Below are positions 52,426 through 59,858 of a stretch of DNA of 64,000 nt, piece after piece (within the stretch, counting starts at the first letter, position 1; each line of letters begins with the position of its first letter). Where the stretch lies: the NCBI GenBank assembly GCA_003220685.1, contig QHTE01000058.1, positions 62,001 through 126,000 of the forward strand, in the 5' to 3' direction. Origin of the DNA: Candidatus Rokuibacteriota bacterium. GTDB lineage: Bacteria; Methylomirabilota; Methylomirabilia; Rokubacteriales; CSP1-6. The translations under genes were made by a program, and so were the position numbers. Under the pieces are notes generated by a model. That model saw nothing but the letters and a program-made list of their open reading frames with translations, made no database searches and was not told the DNA's origin.

Positions 52426-53475
52426 TCACAGGCTCTTCAGGTATCGCAGGAGAGCGTACCGATCAAGGCGTGAGAGATTCATGAACGCCGCCGCGGACGC
52501 CGCCCCCTGTCCGCCATGCTGCGCGATCGCACTCTCGGGAGAGAGTGCCCGCCCATCGTGAAGAAAGCGCGTTCGATTCCGGAGCCCCATGAGGGGTTCG
52601 GTTCTGAATTCCGACCGTCCGGCGACACCCTTGCAGATATCAGCAAGTCCTTCGCCCATATCGTGGAGCAGCAAGTCGGAGTAGATGTAGACAATCTTCC
52701 GATTCAGGGCCTCTATCGGACTTCGGGTTATGAAAGCTGGGATATGGCAGGTTGCGCAGCCGGTAATGTGGAACATCCTCTCCCCATAGCGATCCACACC
52801 AGGGGCGGGTGGCGGGGCGAGGAACCGCACAAAGTCCACGGTGAGCGCGAGGTCGGCGCTACTCAGCTCACTGGGGACCAAGACGCCCTGTTCCTTGTCA
52901 AAAGCCCCCCTGATGAACGTGAGCAGGTCTGCGTCCGTGGCCTTCCGCCCGAACCGGCCGAGCTTCCCATCGGGGAGGAAGGCTGCTCGCCCACCGGCAC
53001 GGCCCTGGTTCGCGAGAATGGCCGAATTGGGGATCGCCGCGATCAGGCCGAACCCGAAGAGGGCTGGGGTGCTCCGAACCGCGACCCTGACATCAGCGAG
53101 GGCCGGGATCGGCGGAAGGGAAGGGCCAGTGCTCTGCTGTCGGAACACGGGGCCGCCAGAGGGTTCCAGCTCATCACAGGTAGGCTGCTCACCGGCCTCG
53201 TCCTCTCCGAATGCCCCTGCCCCGCCGACGACGGGCTCCTCGTGGCACGCCGCGCAGGAGCTGTTATTGAAGAATGGCCCGAGACCGGTCTCCGGGGTGA
53301 ACTCCCTGCTGAACACGGCCTTCCCCCGCGTAAACCGGGCAAGTTCATTCGGAGTCAAATCTGGTAGCGGTGCGCCGACTTGTGGCGAGGGGCTGGTGGT
53401 CGGCATCGCCGCACCTGCCATGATCAGAAAGAACAGTGCCACGACGAGCATCAATCGCCCGGTCATCCTCATCAT
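52426..53475 (-). CDS. Di-haem cytochrome, DUF1111 (di-haem oxidoreductase) family
   Basis: A 349-residue exported protein with signal peptide MMRMTGRLMLVVALFFLIMA. Two CxxCH haem-attachment sites occur: NNSSCAACHEEPVVGG near residue 75 and HITGCATCHIPAFI near residue 240. The conserved FNRTGLGPxFNNxSCxxCH-like start and the terminal ALSPESAIAQHGGQGA are typical of the DUF1111 / cytochrome-c-peroxidase-related group. Haem is attached in the periplasm. It may reduce peroxide or oxidise a small donor; the family has not been fully characterised. Confidence 0.9.
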   Translation of the reverse strand: MMRMTGRLMLVVALFFLIMAGAAMPTTSPSPQVGAPLPDLTPNELARFTRGKAVFSREFTPETGLGPFFNNSSCAACHEEPVVGGAGAFGEDEAGEQPTCDELEPSGGPVFRQQSTGPSLPPIPALADVRVAVRSTPALFGFGLIAAIPNSAILANQGRAGGRAAFLPDGKLGRFGRKATDADLLTFIRGAFDKEQGVLVPSELSSADLALTVDFVRFLAPPPAPGVDRYGERMFHITGCATCHIPAFITRSPIEALNRKIVYIYSDLLLHDMGEGLADICKGVAGRSEFRTEPLMGLRNRTRFLHDGRALSPESAIAQHGGQGAASAAAFMNLSRLDRYALLRYLKSL

Positions 53476-54018: not shown

Positions 54019-54060
54019 CGGCGGGGGTCGGATTTGAACCGACGACCTTTGGGTTATGAG
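54019..54060 (-). pseudogene. 3' half of a tRNA-Met (anticodon CAT)
   Basis: On the minus strand CTCATAA is a seven-base anticodon loop with CAT, followed by the 3' anticodon stem CCCAA, variable loop, perfect T-arm GTCGG-TTCAAAT-CCGAC, and the acceptor strand CCCCGCC plus a G discriminator. The 5' partner of the anticodon stem (TTGGG expected) is absent; unrelated sequence starts immediately after the loop at 54061. There is no D-arm. The 3' half alone is typical of an attachment-site copy left by a tRNA-targeting integrase. Confidence 0.75.
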
Positions 54061-54157
54061 GGTCCGCAGGATGGATCCAGTTGGTCGGGAAAGCAGAAGC
54101 AGAGCACACCTCGTCGAGAACCTCGCGGCGCGGCGAGCGCTGGTCCTGATGCTCGAG

Positions 54158-54315
54158 GATCGGGCGCGGGCCCTCGCGGAGCCCCGCGGCATGCGCCCGC
54201 TCATCGCCCACTGCCATCTCGGTCTCGGAAGGCTCTACCCACACTGGAAAGCGCGAGCCCGGCCGCGAGCACCTCACGACCGCGACGACGATGTACCGCG
54301 TGATGGGCGCCGCCG
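54158..54315 (+). pseudogene. TPR C-terminal remnant of a cyclase/ATPase-type multidomain protein
   Basis: Fragment reading GMRPLIAHCHLGLGRLY, then, after loss of about two bases near 54238, HTGKREPGREHLTTATTMYR. This is the terminal TPR pair of large adenylate-cyclase/AAA proteins. Everything before it is missing. It starts shortly after the tRNA-Met remnant. Confidence 0.65.
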
Positions 54316-54391
54316 TGAAATCGTGCGCGCCGGCAATGACCCAGTCGTGGCCGCTTACGCCACCTGGCAAACCGTGCGCAAGGAGGTAGCT

Positions 54392-54682
54392 ATGCCGCGG
54401 TACGTCGTCCTCTACAGGTTCACTGCCGAAGGCGCGAAGAACCTCCGTGAGACCGTCCAGCGCGCTCGGCAGACACGCGAGCAGACCGAGAAGCGAGGCT
54501 TCAAAGTGCAGACGCTCCTGTGGACGCAAGGCCCGTACGACCTCGTGTCCATCATCGACGCACCATCCGAGGAGGCGATGATGGGTGCGATGACCAACGT
54601 GGTGGCCGCGGGGAACGTCAGCAGCACCACGATGCGCGCGTTCGACGACAAGGAGATGGAAGGGATCCAGAGACAGGGCTGA
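54392..54682 (+). CDS. GYD domain protein
   Basis: A 96-residue GYD-family protein: PRYVVLYRFTAEGAKNLRET, FKVQTLLWTQGPYDLVSIID with the GPYD variant of the eponymous GxYD motif, then NVSSTTMRAFDDKEMEGI. AAGGAGG lies five to eight bases upstream. GYD proteins are small ferredoxin-like dimers of uncertain function. It is complete. Confidence 0.88.
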   Translation: MPRYVVLYRFTAEGAKNLRETVQRARQTREQTEKRGFKVQTLLWTQGPYDLVSIIDAPSEEAMMGAMTNVVAAGNVSSTTMRAFDDKEMEGIQRQG

Positions 54683-54788: not shown

Positions 54789-55415
54789 TCACTGACCCTC
54801 AAGGCGCTCGAAGAAGATTCCCAGCCCGACGGATGATTCAAGCGTGCGGTATCTGACCCACTTGATCGTGGGGCAGCGAACCTGCCGGGCCGCGCGCCTC
54901 AGCGCGGGCGAGAACTGTGGCGCCACGAGCATCAACGCCGGCGGCAGACTGTAGTCGATCCTGTGGTTGGGATACAGACGCCGAACGATCAGCACATTCC
55001 GGGCGACCCAGTCCAAATGGCCCAGCCCGCGGATGAGCAGCCCTTCGTCGATGCTCGTGGTGAAGTCGATGACCGTCAATTGATTCGAGCGGCTGAGCCC
55101 GAGCAGATCGATCGGGCCGCACAGAGGGCACGCAATCTCCGAGTCGATAGAGGTCAAACCTTCCTCGAGAGCACCGTGGAACTCCTTCAGCAGGGGGGCG
55201 AACTGGTCCCTGGTTAGCGACAACTGCCGTCCCAGGAGGACCGCCCCGGCAGGCGAAGAGGCCGCAGGATGGTGGGTCGAACCGCCGGACGGATGCTCGT
55301 TCGCCGTCGCCTCGCCACGCCTTCCCAGCTGAAACAGATGGGAGATGTCCTCTAATCCGCGTCCAAGGGGCTTGTCCAGACGGCCACCGCCTTCCGGACT
55401 TGTGCCACCCGTCAT
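54789..55415 (-). CDS. ParA-CBM partner: ParB-like GRGL tag plus nuclease-fold-like domain
   Basis: A 208-residue protein starting at an ATG that overlaps the ParA-CBM stop (ATGA). The N-terminal RLDKPLGRGLEDISHLF resembles the ParB N-terminal tag (GRGLEALL type) that stimulates ParA ATPase. After a 40-residue low-complexity linker comes a domain with ACPLCGPIDLLGLSRSNQLT and VIDFTTSIDEGLLIRGLGHL, then YSLPPALMLVAPQFSPALRR. The order of an Asp, a second Asp-x-Thr and a WVARN helix looks like a PD-(D/E)XK fold, but the Lys is Thr, so it may bind without cutting. Function unknown. Confidence 0.72.
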   Translation of the reverse strand: MTGGTSPEGGGRLDKPLGRGLEDISHLFQLGRRGEATANEHPSGGSTHHPAASSPAGAVLLGRQLSLTRDQFAPLLKEFHGALEEGLTSIDSEIACPLCGPIDLLGLSRSNQLTVIDFTTSIDEGLLIRGLGHLDWVARNVLIVRRLYPNHRIDYSLPPALMLVAPQFSPALRRAARQVRCPTIKWVRYRTLESSVGLGIFFERLEGQ

Positions 55416-56575
55416 GCGCTGATCCGCGTCTTCTGTTCCCCTGTGGGATCCCACTCTGCCAACTGCTCGTCCACGACGAGGACGGAGTCGTGGCCGCCGT
55501 ATGAACTGGGTTCGACCACAGGGTTCCGGGGATCACGCTGCCAGACCCCGTCGACCACGTAGCGGTATCGGTAGCGCCCCGGCTGCAGCTTCACAACCTT
55601 CTCCCAGACGCGACCGACGGGATTCATATCGTTTCCATCCAGGACCCAGCCGTTGAAGTCGCCAGCCAGCTGGACTCGCGCCGCGTCCGGCGCTTCGAGG
55701 GTGAACATGACACCCGTCTGAGTCACCGCCGGCGTCAGCGGTCGTCCGGACTCGTCGTCGCGGGCGGTCCCGACGTCGGCGAGGGTGATCCGCTCTCGCT
55801 TCGGACTCTCGGCGTCTTGCTGCAGGACCTCTGCGGTGAGTGCCTGATAATCCTCATAGCCCGCGCAGTACCTGGCATAGTGGGCGATAGGCAAGCCATG
55901 GCTGGCGGCCTCAGCCAGCTTGACGCTGTATCTGATAACCGTTTCAAAGTACCGGCCGTCGAGGTGACTGCGGATCTCGTCCACGATCGCTCTCACAAAA
56001 GGCGTCCGGCCCGAGTACAACGTGAGGAGCGCTCGGGGGGTAATCCGATGCCCAGTCTGTTTCTCCAGTGCGTCAAATGTCTCCAGCTGCTTTCCGAGAC
56101 CATGGAGGGAGAAGAAGCTGGGATCCATGGGCACGATCGCTTCCAAGCAAGCCCTCAGCGCATTGAGGGTGAGCAGACCGATATTCGGCGGGCAGTCGAC
56201 GATCGCGAAGTCGTACCGCCCTCTGACTTCGGCCAGGTTGTCGGCGAGGACGGTCTCGCGCCCGGCGACCCCAGTCAGCCGCTCCGGGATCACGCTGAGG
56301 CGAATATCGGACGGAGCCACATCCAAGTTTTCCCGTGCCGAACGGGTGATGTCGCGAAGGCGAGTCGGTTGACCGCCGCGCTCGGTCACGAACACTTCGT
56401 ACATGGTCGGGGTCCCGACCGAACCGCTCAAGACCCCTAACGTCGCATGCCCCTGCGGGTCCATGTCCACGAGCAATACACGCTTCTGCTCCCTGGCAAG
56501 GAAAGCGGCCAGATTTATGGAGGTGATGGTCTTCCCGCAGCCGCCCTTCTGGTTCACCACGGCTATTGTGCGCAT
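55412..56575 (-). CDS. ParA-type ATPase fused to a C-terminal glycogen-binding (CBM48/AMPK-type) domain
   Basis: A 387-residue fusion. Residues 1-250 are a ParA/Soj ATPase: deviant Walker A KGGCGKT (10-16), Walker A' region VDMDPQGHATLG (36-47), Walker B FAIVDCPPNIGLL (123-135) and SFFSLHGLGKQLETF. Residues about 287-370 are a CBM48-type beta-sandwich: VQLAGDFNGWVLDGNDMNPV, WEKVVKLQPGRYRYRYVVDG, DPRNPVVEPSSYGGHDSVLV, with conserved Trp310 and Trp324/345. ParA proteins position plasmids, chromosomes or protein clusters; CBM48 binds alpha-glucan. The partner gene follows by a four-base overlap. The combination is unlike ordinary plasmid ParA. Confidence 0.93.
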   Translation of the reverse strand: MRTIAVVNQKGGCGKTITSINLAAFLAREQKRVLLVDMDPQGHATLGVLSGSVGTPTMYEVFVTERGGQPTRLRDITRSARENLDVAPSDIRLSVIPERLTGVAGRETVLADNLAEVRGRYDFAIVDCPPNIGLLTLNALRACLEAIVPMDPSFFSLHGLGKQLETFDALEKQTGHRITPRALLTLYSGRTPFVRAIVDEIRSHLDGRYFETVIRYSVKLAEAASHGLPIAHYARYCAGYEDYQALTAEVLQQDAESPKRERITLADVGTARDDESGRPLTPAVTQTGVMFTLEAPDAARVQLAGDFNGWVLDGNDMNPVGRVWEKVVKLQPGRYRYRYVVDGVWQRDPRNPVVEPSSYGGHDSVLVVDEQLAEWDPTGEQKTRISA

Positions 56576-56980
56576 GTGTGGCTCCTCGTGATCGCGGCAA
56601 AGGAGATGAGTTGAGTCTTATCCTGATGGAGACAGGCAGGGCCCCGACCGGCCACCGATTCAACGAGGCCATTCATGCCATCTTCCTCCAGACCTCGGAT
56701 GAAGAAGAGTAACGCCCCAGGGGTTGCACGTAGCCCAACGGTAGCAAATACCCCTGTTCGATTACAACTATTCCTGGTATATAAGGCGGGCGTTTACCAC
56801 CGGGTATCGTGTGCTCGGAACCCAGGCGGGATGGTGAAGCAGACACCACGAGACCGGCCAAGTGCCGTTCGATAAAGGGTTTCTCTCGATCCAGCAGGGC
56901 TTCGGTGGACCCCCGTACGTGGCATCCCGCGGCTTGCTCGAAGCGTGCGGTTGATGACACCGCCCGAGGCTTGAACCAAC
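56576..56980. other. Intergenic region upstream of the ParA fusion
   Basis: About 400 bases. Around 56735-56800 is an AT-richer pocket containing TTACAACTATTCC and GGTATATAAGG, the best candidate for a promoter or a ParA/partner binding site. I see no parS-like palindrome and no gene. Confidence 0.4.
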
Positions 56981-57298
56981 ATGAAGCGGACGAGAGCGAG
57001 GCGGCGTTCGAGGGCGGAGAGGCTCGCGCGGATAGGCACACGGCGTCTCGATGAAGCGACGGCGGCCGGCAAGACGGTTCCCCTTGATCCCGACGATGTG
57101 GTGGAGGTCGTCCGGCCACAGACCGTGTCAAGCATTGACCGGGCGACGTTCCGTCGGGGCGACTACGGCCGTATCGTCCGCCCTGACGGCAGCGAACAGT
57201 GGTGGGTACGGTCCGCGCGGGGTACCTGGATCGCCCTGGTGCATCAGCGGGTCGTGGAGAACGACGACGGCACGATCACGTTACTGTCGTTGATGTAA
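56981..57298 (+). CDS. Small basic protein of unknown function
   Basis: A 105-residue protein. The first 30 residues are very basic (KRTRARRRSRAERLARIGTR). The rest is a compact beta-type domain: PLDPDDVVEVVRPQTVSSID, DYGRIVRPDGSEQWWVRSAR and GTWIALVHQRVVENDDGTIT. No family is recognised. It could be a small nucleic-acid-binding protein. Its 3' end overlaps the truncated MFS gene on the other strand by 18 bases, where a deletion junction is suspected. Confidence 0.55.
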   Translation: MKRTRARRRSRAERLARIGTRRLDEATAAGKTVPLDPDDVVEVVRPQTVSSIDRATFRRGDYGRIVRPDGSEQWWVRSARGTWIALVHQRVVENDDGTITLLSLM

Positions 57299-58051
57299 CG
57301 AGAGGCGTGCCAGCGGCGTCCACGCGCCTGTCGTCTGGGCAGCCACGAACGTGAGGAACGTGACGACCCAGCCGCGGAGCGCGGACATTTCCCACGTATG
57401 CACGCAATAGGCGATCGAGTACGCGAGCGCCGATCGGTTGCGAAGGATCGGCCGAAAATCGAGCAATGCCCGGCGCGGGCCGGCTGCGGCACTGACGGGT
57501 CGTGGCGGCAGGCCGATTGAGACCAGCACGAACGCCAATGTGGCGCCGATCGCGCCGGGTACCAATGCCCAGTGCCAGCCGAGCCAGGCGTTGACGGCGC
57601 CGGCGACGCCGAAGGAAAGCGCGCCGCTCACGCCGACCGCCGCCGCGTGCGCCGCGACGGCCCTGGACTGCTGCTGGCCCTCCGCCAGGTCGCTCAACGC
57701 CTTCAGCCCCGGCATGTAGCTGCCCGCCCAGCCGGCGCCCATCAGCGCCCGGAACGCCAGGGCCGACCAGAAGCCGCTTGCGATCCATGCGAACCCGGCG
57801 AACGCGACGGCGGTCAGGGCAACGGAGCCGAGATAGATGCGCTTGGGGTCGATCCGATCCGTGAGCGACGACAGCAGCGGCACCGCCACCGTGTAGGCCG
57901 CATAGTAAATGCCGCTGATCCAGCCGGCCTCGGTGTTGGTGAGCGCCCAGACCGATATCAGTGTTGGGAGCACCACGGCGACGCTGAACGCGCCGAGCTG
58001 AGCGCACGCCTGCGCTGCACACATCGCGACGACGCCACGGGACAGCGTCAT
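57281..58051 (-). CDS. MFS transporter, C-terminally truncated
   Basis: A 256-residue fragment with six to seven transmembrane helices, where complete family members have about 400 and twelve. The A motif reads YYAAYTVAVPLLSSLTDRID and helices 4-6 include FAGFAWIASGFWSALAFRAL. Homology ends near HTWEMSALRGWVVTFLTFVA; the following 18 residues do not resemble a helix 8, so the C-terminal 130-150 residues have been lost. It lies 24 bases after the first MFS gene in the arsenic operon, in the same direction. Confidence 0.72.
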   Translation of the reverse strand: MTLSRGVVAMCAAQACAQLGAFSVAVVLPTLISVWALTNTEAGWISGIYYAAYTVAVPLLSSLTDRIDPKRIYLGSVALTAVAFAGFAWIASGFWSALAFRALMGAGWAGSYMPGLKALSDLAEGQQQSRAVAAHAAAVGVSGALSFGVAGAVNAWLGWHWALVPGAIGATLAFVLVSIGLPPRPVSAAAGPRRALLDFRPILRNRSALAYSIAYCVHTWEMSALRGWVVTFLTFVAAQTTGAWTPLARLSLHQRQ

Positions 58052-58075
58052 CTCGTCCCCGTCCCGTTCTTCGGG

Positions 58076-59377
58076 CTACGGGACGCGGGCAGCCTGAACG
58101 GAAGCGTCATGCCGATCGACCGTGGCGAGGGCGGCCCGCTGGCGCTCGTACCAGCGAGCCATCAACTCCATCGCGAGCCATGCCGCCGAGCAGCCGACCA
58201 GGAGCGATACCCGTCCGGTCCCCCAGCCCCATCGGTCTACGATCCAGGCGAACATCGCCGGGGCCGCCGCATTCACCACCAGCACGGGCGTGGCGATCAG
58301 GCCGAGCACGGCGCCATATTCCGTGGCGCCGAATAGCGCGAGTGGAACCGCGCCGCGGACAATCGTGAGCACGCCCTGGGACGCGCCCATGAGCAGCGTG
58401 AACGCGACGACCAGCGGCACGCTGCTGGTGCTTACCAGCAGCAGGACCAGCGAGGCCGGCAGGATGCCGATGGCGATGCGGCCGACGGTGATCGCGCGCA
58501 GGTTCCGCGCGAAGACGATCTCGACCACCCGCCCACCGAACTGCGCCACGCCTTTCAGTGAAGCGACCCAGACAGCGGCCGCAGTCGCCAAGCCCGCGGC
58601 CTCCAGCAAGGGAACGAGCTGTACCGAAATCACGCCGAAGACAAACCCGTTCAGCGACATGATGAGCGCGAAGAGCGCGATGGCGACCGAGCGGGTCGGC
58701 CCCTTGAGTGGAGGTCCGTCTGGAGTCGCGACAGGGCCGCCGTCCGGTCCCGCATGTCGGTCGGACTCGCGTCGCGCGAGACCTAACCAGTGCAGCGGCA
58801 AGCAGACCACCAGATTGATGAGCGCGAACACGACGAGGGTCTGTCGCCAGCCCAGCTGCTCGTTGAGCGCATGGCCGACTACCCAGAACACCGACGAGGC
58901 GAACGCCCCGAACAACGTCAGGTACGAGATGGCCGTCCGCCCGCGCGACGGCGCGACCTGCACTAGTGCGGCGAATGCCGCGTCGTACAGGCACAGCCGC
59001 ATCCCCAGACCCAGAACCGCCCAGACGACCAGGTAGACGGCTTCGCTGCGCGCCTGCGACAGCGCGAAGAGCCCGGCGGAGACAAGACCGGTGCCGAGCG
59101 TCATCACGGCGCGCGCGCCGTGGCGGTCGATCGCACGGCCAACGGTACTCGACACGGCACCCATCGCGAGCAGCGCGACGGTGAAGCCGAGGAACACGAA
59201 GCCGCGGCTCCAACCTGTGTCGCGACTGATCGGCCCCGCGAGGACTCCCAGGCAGTAGTAGCTGGTGCCCCAGGCGGTGATCTGCGTGATGCCCAGCGCG
59301 AGAACCGCGCCGACCATGGGGTCGCTGAGTCGCGTGCCCCATCCGGCGCGCTTGTCCGCGTGTGATGCGGCACTCAC
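58076..59377 (-). CDS. MFS transporter in the arsenic operon
   Basis: A twelve-helix MFS protein of about 430 residues. Start is uncertain: GTG 59377 is 20 bases after the arsI stop, while an ATG at 59440 would overlap arsI by 44 bases and an ATG at 59317 begins MVGAVLALGITQITAWGTSY. The A motif is AMGAVSSTVGRAIDRHGARA. Context next to arsI and arsR suggests export of an arsenical, as with ArsP, ArsK or ArsJ carriers, but it is not clearly one of those. A truncated paralogue follows downstream. Confidence 0.85.
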   Translation of the reverse strand: MSAASHADKRAGWGTRLSDPMVGAVLALGITQITAWGTSYYCLGVLAGPISRDTGWSRGFVFLGFTVALLAMGAVSSTVGRAIDRHGARAVMTLGTGLVSAGLFALSQARSEAVYLVVWAVLGLGMRLCLYDAAFAALVQVAPSRGRTAISYLTLFGAFASSVFWVVGHALNEQLGWRQTLVVFALINLVVCLPLHWLGLARRESDRHAGPDGGPVATPDGPPLKGPTRSVAIALFALIMSLNGFVFGVISVQLVPLLEAAGLATAAAVWVASLKGVAQFGGRVVEIVFARNLRAITVGRIAIGILPASLVLLLVSTSSVPLVVAFTLLMGASQGVLTIVRGAVPLALFGATEYGAVLGLIATPVLVVNAAAPAMFAWIVDRWGWGTGRVSLLVGCSAAWLAMELMARWYERQRAALATVDRHDASVQAARVP

Positions 59378-59396
59378 GAGGCGCGCGTCCGTGGCA

Positions 59397-59858
59397 TTAC
59401 GATGCGCAGCTGCTGGTGCCTCCGCAGCACGAGCTCGCACCGACCACCGCCAGGCTCGGCCGCGCCGCCACCCGCTCTTCCTCGCCCTCGAGGTCGTAGT
59501 TGAGGTGGTACACCTCCCACTCGACGCCGTCCGGATCCTTCACCCAGAACTTGTCCTGGTTGGCGTGGCAGCAGTTGACGCCCATCTCCTCCTTCACGGG
59601 AAGGCCGGCCGCCTTGACGCGGGCCAGCTGCGAGATCACGGTCTCCACGGAATCGACCTGGACGCCGACGTGGTCGATGGTCCCCGCGCCGATCGGGCCG
59701 CCGGTGGAGAGCGCGAGGTTGACGGGCGCCCACTCGGGCAGGAATTTGACGTAGCCTTGCTTGACCTTCACAGGGTCCCCGCCGAGGAACTTCTCGTAGA
59801 AGTCGCGGCTCCTGGAGAGATCCGACACGTGCATGTGGAGATGGACCTTGGCGCTCAT
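59397..59858 (-). CDS. arsI: ArsI/CadI family C-As lyase-type dioxygenase
   Basis: A 153-residue VOC enzyme of the ArsI group: MSAKVHLHMHVSDLSRSRDF with the first His ligand, GTIDHVGVQVDSVETV, EEMGVNCCHANQDKFWVKDP whose vicinal Cys pair binds trivalent arsenicals, and EWEVYHLNYDLE with the Glu ligand. ArsI uses Fe(II) and oxygen to cleave methyl- or phenyl-arsenite. The Cys-rich C-terminus (SSCCGGTSSC) may add arsenic binding. GGGGGAGCC precedes the ATG. It lies between arsR and the MFS gene. Confidence 0.95.
   Translation of the reverse strand: MSAKVHLHMHVSDLSRSRDFYEKFLGGDPVKVKQGYVKFLPEWAPVNLALSTGGPIGAGTIDHVGVQVDSVETVISQLARVKAAGLPVKEEMGVNCCHANQDKFWVKDPDGVEWEVYHLNYDLEGEEERVAARPSLAVVGASSCCGGTSSCAS

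Follow-up and report, generated by a model that had tools for sequence, protein, structure and literature searches.

ParA/MinD ATPases position chromosomes, plasmids, carboxysomes, chemoreceptor clusters and division sites, and to our knowledge none of them reads a sugar polymer. A soil bacterium carries a gene for a ParA ATPase that ends in a putative glucan-binding domain, next to a small partner gene, both on the minus strand. The locus thus raises the question of what an ATPase of this family would do with a sugar polymer, and what its partner contributes. A sequence-only reading had proposed that the pair partitions glycogen granules or senses carbon, and knew of no described system of this layout. 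The second statement agrees with our own search, which returned no paper describing a ParA with a glucan-binding module in the open-access literature; the first needs to be weighed against rival explanations.

A ParA-family ATPase with a C-terminal CBM48 domain

The window is the whole 64,000-nt stretch of DNA that was analysed, and all coordinates are window positions unless a locus is named. The ParA-CBM48 fusion gene (55412..56575, minus strand) is a complete ORF from ATG to TGA encoding 387 aa, with a GAGGAG Shine-Dalgarno sequence at 56582-56587, and is present as a single copy in its own genome (a 100% match to itself). The partner gene (54789..55415, minus strand) encodes 208 aa with no Pfam or NCBIfam match, and its ATG start codon at 55415 overlaps the ParA-CBM48 stop by 4 bp; on rereading, the coordinates, strand and overlap first reported for the two genes are exact. 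Neighbouring genes in the window, at 52426-53475 (minus strand), 54056-54682 (plus strand) and 57281-59440 (minus strand), encode a di-haem oxidoreductase, a GYD-domain protein and MFS transporters, and we saw no sign that the pair forms an operon with them.

The ATPase domain spans residues 1-266 (55778..56575, minus strand), with Pfam AAA_31 matching residues 1-175 (2e-44) and Myxococcus xanthus ParA as the closest solved ParA (PDB 8ray, 9e-42). It has a deviant Walker A motif, KGGCGKT, with the signature Lys, a Walker B motif, VDCPP, and the signature Asp. The Cys-bearing Walker A is found in the window protein and in 72/75 members and is a signature of the group, and D58/D60 of the catalytic motif are kept in all family members. 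The basic residue for non-specific DNA binding (R238 in M. xanthus) is Lys or Arg in 69/77 aligned rows; in the window protein it is a Lys within SVKLAEAAS. By sequence criteria, the window ATPase is a member of the ParA/MinD deviant Walker A family.

The C-terminal domain (residues 286-366; 55478..55720, minus strand) had been read as a CBM48/AMPK-type glycogen-binding domain, an assignment that would fail if the domain were not CBM48-like or had lost its glucan-contacting aromatics. Both CBM profiles match above their curated cut-offs (Pfam AMPK1_CBM, residues 297-366, 3.6e-10, 40.3 bits with a cut-off of 26.8; Pfam CBM_48, 1.4e-7, 32.2 bits with a cut-off of 22.4), and the solved CBMs that it matches are those of AMPK-beta1 (1z0n, 1.6e-5), pullulanase (5ot1) and plant glucan phosphatases, in agreement with an AMPK-beta fold. 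In the alignment, W310, W345 and R338 correspond to W100, W133 and K126 of AMPK-beta1. The first stacking tryptophan is present in 75/75 members and the second in 70/75, and the K126 position is Arg or Lys in 70/75 (Arg alone in 66/75); the L146 position, Tyr in the window, is Phe or Tyr in 61/75. Retention of the tryptophans and of the basic residue argues for selection on alpha-glucan binding, alpha-glucan being the putative ligand of the CBM of ParA-CBM48. The five exceptions at W133 form a single marine Planctomycete clade (the Phycisphaerales loci L101, L104, L106, L109 and L110), in which the ISHLFLS tag of the partner, described below, is lost as well.

The same alignment bears on an alternative that we consider rather unlikely, in which the C-terminal domain is an E-set domain that serves protein-protein contacts only, its sugar binding being vestigial. 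E-set domains are often protein modules, and not every AMPK contact is kept: T148 is Gly in the window and Glu or Gly among members, without conservation, and N150, Asn in 55/75 members, is Asp in the window protein. Moreover, most fusion loci have no glucan gene nearby. Against this, the persistence of both tryptophans and of the basic residue over deep divergence is hard to account for without selection by a ligand.

Spread of the fusion and its tagged partner

With the window protein as query we scanned 84,980 species genomes; of the best 80 loci among 220 relatives, 77 carry the CBM on ParA. They come from about ten phyla, comprising Rokubacteria, Methylomirabilota, Acidobacteriota, Myxococcota, Latescibacterota, Nitrospirota, Gemmatimonadota, Pseudomonadota, Actinomycetota, Margulisbacteria and very many Planctomycetota; taxa are as titled in the records, which are mostly metagenome-assembled genomes (MAGs), with genes called on MAG contigs by simple ORF finding; some of the Planctomycetes are finished genomes. 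In a quick tree of the ATPase domain alone, with five outgroups (the nearest CBM-less ParAs, the host's own ParA and Myxococcus ParA), the fusions fall on one side of a branch (SH-aLRT 100) from the plain ParAs. Judged from these comparisons of sequence, the fusion is old and widespread, neither a chance joining nor a local one. A PADLOC search for a defence system yielded weak partial matches only, and we rejected that candidate. We also set aside an acidobacterial gp18 MAG locus (L044:1277-3211) whose single 644-aa frame runs from ParA through half a CBM into the tagged partner; since the joint falls in the middle of the CBM, this fusion may have arisen naturally by a deletion or be an artefact of assembly, and it is not used as evidence.

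That the partner might not be conserved beside the fusion was a further way in which the sequence-only reading could have failed. A gene with the N-terminal tag lies directly downstream in at least 42 of 77 fusion loci, often with a 4-bp overlap. Of the 57 genomes of the window's family, nine have the fusion and ten have a close partner, and the two are always paired, the tenth partner sitting at a contig edge; an orthologue 83% identical to the window partner, and others about 50% identical, stand beside ParA-CBM48 in this family. Homologous fusions in at least 77 loci across phyla, together with perfect pairing within the window's family, amount to more than chance. None of the three refuting conditions set for the sequence-only reading (a domain unlike CBM48, loss of its aromatics, a pair that is not conserved) came true. 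About 30 Planctomycete fusion loci have no adjacent tagged partner, and in eight such genomes that were searched for one we found only ordinary Walker-A FlhG/MinD homologues or no match. One Planctomycete clade (L051, L054, L055, L057, L059, L060 and L068) has a 620-aa glycosyltransferase-like protein (PF13524) immediately upstream, and in this clade the tagged partner is mostly missing.

The tag of the window partner, KPLGRGLEDISHLF (residues 15-28; 55332..55373, minus strand), is a proposed ParA-docking helix, recognised by its conservation across lineages. Its versions are KRSLSEISHLFLS in Phycisphaerae, RSIEEISHLFLS in a Nitrospirota genome, RQQLRDISHLYIS in Latescibacterota, KQLEEIAHLYFS and RERLAGISQYFLS in Pseudomonadota and LGRGLEDVSHLFLS in Rokubacteria. 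We built a model from eleven Planctomycete tags only and ran it on 31 loci of other lineages, which together hold 885 ORFs; each of the top 11 ORFs was the gene directly after ParA-CBM48. What the versions have in common is an amphipathic helix, R-x-L-x-E-I-S-H-L-F-L-S in type, whose position and pattern recur across lineages, and a related tag is helical in the predicted model of a Planctomycete partner. In the Termititenax locus, 2 kb downstream of the fusion, a protein that by eye resembles an ExeA-like AAA ATPase (L094:8037-8981) has a tag-like N-terminus, SSLEDFADIFIS, which may be chance.

The tag had been described as ParB-like on account of its GRGL motif. LGRGL is indeed present in the window partner (residues 17-21), and it is identical in the host's chromosomal ParB, which begins MITKRGLGRGLGALL and contains LGRGLGALL; the label of a ParB-specific tag is nevertheless too narrow, since the cross-lineage search finds a broader helix of which GRGL is only the Rokubacterial version. 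The resemblance to ParB also invites the explanation that this ParA serves in the ordinary partition of a chromosome or plasmid and that its extra domain is decoration. A Soj-like ATPase and a GRGL tag shared with ParB would fit, whereas the genome of the window encodes a separate, chromosomal ParA-ParB pair (ParABS) elsewhere, the partner has no ParB domain, and no CBM-bearing copy was found on plasmids in PLSDB or phages in INPHARED. This explanation is largely refuted, and we regard it as very improbable.

An N-terminal ParB peptide with aliphatic residues and one basic residue binds the ParA dimer interface; peptide and DNA stimulate ParA hydrolysis, and the peptide suffices for activation (PMC12462528). 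The window partner's peptide, LGRGLEDISHLF, with its aliphatic and basic residues, is of this ParA-binding type by sequence. In M. xanthus ParA, the pocket for the ParB arginine is formed by Y81, E82, D110 and E117. Y81 and E82 are kept in the window protein; the acidic D110 and E117 are Arg and Arg, and these two positions vary across the family. With D110 and E117 lost or reversed in charge, the partner cannot dock exactly as ParB does on ParA, and it probably docks in a similar place with different detail. Such altered detail would keep the pair separate from the host ParB, whose tag is nearly identical. Position 110 of ParA seems at first to be coupled to the tag; phylogeny confounds this signal, and we make no claim from it.

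Behind the tag, the window partner has a domain (residues 66-206; 54798..55220, minus strand) that AlphaFold2 predicts as alpha-beta3-alpha-beta with an alpha-beta2 extension, in a model of low alignment depth with a mean pLDDT of 61 (mostly 65-83 in the domain). The earlier description of this domain as nuclease-like holds for its predicted PD-(D/E)XK fold, for which the best Foldseek matches in the PDB are EndoMS/NucS (5gke, 2e-5; 2vld, 2e-4), but does not extend to activity. D103 of the catalytic D...E-x-K is kept and E-x-K is replaced by D-F-T; E-x-K is missing from all 19 aligned relatives, which rules out an active nuclease. The match is one of fold only: a sequence profile against the PDB returned nothing significant (NucS at E 1.1), and the domain does not reach the threshold of Pfam NucS_C. 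The same domain is also free-standing, with long disordered tails, in most Rokubacteria (L020:1501-2871, L022-L034), and in L020 it is joined to a response-regulator receiver domain.

In other lineages the NucS-like domain is often joined or replaced by a Walker-less FlhG-like domain. Phycisphaerae partners consist of the tag, a Walker-less FlhG-like domain (4rz2, 1.3e-9) and a C-terminal domain with the same predicted topology as the window's, to which its sequence link is weak (P 0.01). In Pseudomonadota it is a degenerate MinD-like protein that bears the tag, and a third gene encodes the NucS-like domain (hmmsearch down to 7e-10). The partner bodies are therefore modular (Walker-less FlhG-like, dead NucS-like, or both), and a constant tag on varying bodies suggests that the bodies are interchangeable scaffolds.

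Glucan metabolism and gene neighbourhoods

A plausible link of ParA-CBM48 to glucan comes from the genomes of carriers. Within the window's family, GlgE is found in 10/10 carriers and 30/47 other genomes (p 0.025), and classical GlgA in 0/10 and 18/47 (Fisher p 0.02); these are among few tests, uncorrected and ignoring kinship. GH57-family proteins are present in 10/10 carriers, with a GH57 branching enzyme confirmed by BE_C in one (G034), and GlgB in 3/10; neither GlgB nor phosphorylase is associated with carriers within the 57-genome family. The Rokubacterial glucan would be made by GlgE and a GH57 branching enzyme, not by GlgA. In the Rokubacterial genome G034, a distance of about 3.6 kb separates the fusion gene from the TreZ-like GH13 gene, which it follows, of a cluster that encodes GlgE, GH13, a GH57 branching enzyme and the TreZ-like GH13 (L125; contig 132:62000-81999), and in the Planctomycete genome syqfu a GH57 branching enzyme is encoded about 4 kb away from the fusion. 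We found no conserved glucan operon beside the pair, the clustering of neighbours giving lineage-specific genes only; when we scanned five complete genomes over 20 kb to either side, 4/5 had none of the glucan genes tested, and there was one GH57 gene overall.

These results weigh on glycogen-granule partitioning proper, in which an alpha-glucan particle is the cargo shared between daughter cells. The conserved sugar platform of the CBM, GlgE and GH57-family proteins in every carrier of the window's family, and the glucan clusters that adjoin the gene in two unrelated genomes are all consistent with it. Nonetheless, known ParA systems have their cargo on the partner, whereas here the glucan reader sits on the ATPase; GlgA is lacking from the carriers, GlgB is found in few of them, and no glucan neighbour is conserved. 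We therefore do not retain this proposal of the sequence-only reading as it stood, and think it improbable in its strict form; carbon sensing or anchoring is equally compatible with the data.

Upstream genes bear on a third explanation. In eight loci, a MerR-type HTH gene lies directly upstream of ParA-CBM48 (L061:4440-4916, L069:4347-4940, L073:4356-4940, L075:4380-4910 and L113:517-1023, and also L062, L065 and L070), and these genes share a C-terminal domain, LVATGDxxxVFxxxxAFEAxTGQxW; their products could be regulators or DNA adaptors. They would belong, in some lineages, to a carbon-state switch, in which glucan or maltooligosaccharide on the CBM alters ATPase activity or DNA binding and the pair regulates transcription or division, with no body being moved. 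AMPK-type CBMs are sensors of energy stores, Rokubacteria have a receiver-fused paralogue of the partner domain, and the window ATPase is a single gene without a cargo operon, all of which would suit a switch. Loci in Rokubacteria and Planctomycetes have no MerR-type gene, however, and the pairing of tag and ATPase resembles the ATPase activation that is typical of positioning systems, and we consider such a switch unlikely.

A model for the pair and its relation to known systems

The reading that we favour, with somewhat short of even confidence, is that the pair is a two-component spatial-organisation module of the ParA/MinD family, with its CBM on alpha-glucan. ParA-CBM48, whose relevant residues are kept, would dimerise with ATP and bind the nucleoid non-specifically. 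Docking of the partner's amphipathic tag helix on the dimer would resemble that of the ParB, PomX and MinE peptides on their own ATPases and would trigger hydrolysis and release, as the conserved tag and the gene order suggest. The folded part of the partner, dead NucS-like and/or Walker-less FlhG-like, would act as a scaffold and not as an enzyme. The CBM48 would tie the ATPase to intracellular alpha-glucan, either as a bridge between nucleoid and glucan or as a switch set by glucan supply. MinD has a membrane-targeting tail at its C-terminus, and since the CBM occupies the corresponding place on the ATPase, the simplest model would have the ATPase anchored or switched on alpha-glucan. Glucan as cargo, with glycogen as the presumed cargo, would be one version of this model.

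If this is correct, bacteria may use the pair to position or to sense storage sugar in a manner so far unrecognised, and a polysaccharide store, not DNA or membrane alone, would be the anchoring surface or the cargo of a ParA/MinD cycle. It is possible, and we put it forward tentatively, that a ParA system not described before, and spread over about ten phyla, uses the CBM48 on its own ATPase to read alpha-glucan, which would make it the first partition-type machinery for a carbohydrate granule. With a fusion of one clade and a co-conserved partner in about ten phyla, including finished Planctomycete genomes, positioning or sensing of sugar is directly testable. The pair also offers a natural variant of the ParA-activating peptide, with the charge of the ParA-side pocket and the sequence of the tag both changed, which bears on insulation from the chromosomal ParABS of the same cell.

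The pair shares with chromosomal ParABS the ParA fold, the Walker motifs, the DNA-binding basic residue and an LGRGL-type peptide on an adjacent partner; it differs in the CBM48 on the ATPase, in the changed acidic pocket for the ParB arginine, in a partner without a ParB/CTPase (ParB/Srx) or HTH domain, and in a host that has its own ParABS. The CBM48 has the fold of that of AMPK beta, with the stacking tryptophans W100/W133 and a basic residue at K126, but here it is fused to a bacterial ParA ATPase, with no kinase, and has Phe/Tyr at L146, Glu/Gly at T148 and, in the window, Asp at N150. The partner domain resembles the C-terminal domain of NucS/EndoMS in its predicted PD-(D/E)XK fold, yet its relatives lack the catalytic E-x-K and the partner lacks the NucS N-terminal domain. 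The middle domain of Planctomycete, Nitrospira and Proteobacterial partners has the fold of FlhG/FleN (4rz2, E 1.3e-9) without its Walker A, and is absent from the window partner. McdAB, PomXYZ, PpfA-TlpT, MinDE and FlhFG are like the pair in their adjacent gene, short N-terminal ATPase-facing element and non-ParB body, and in being chromosomal and not tied to DNA segregation; what sets the pair apart is a sugar-binding module on the ATPase, a cargo that is only inferred, and partner bodies made of dead FlhG-like and NucS-like domains. By kind, the pair is thus a ParA/MinD two-component system and not a new category.
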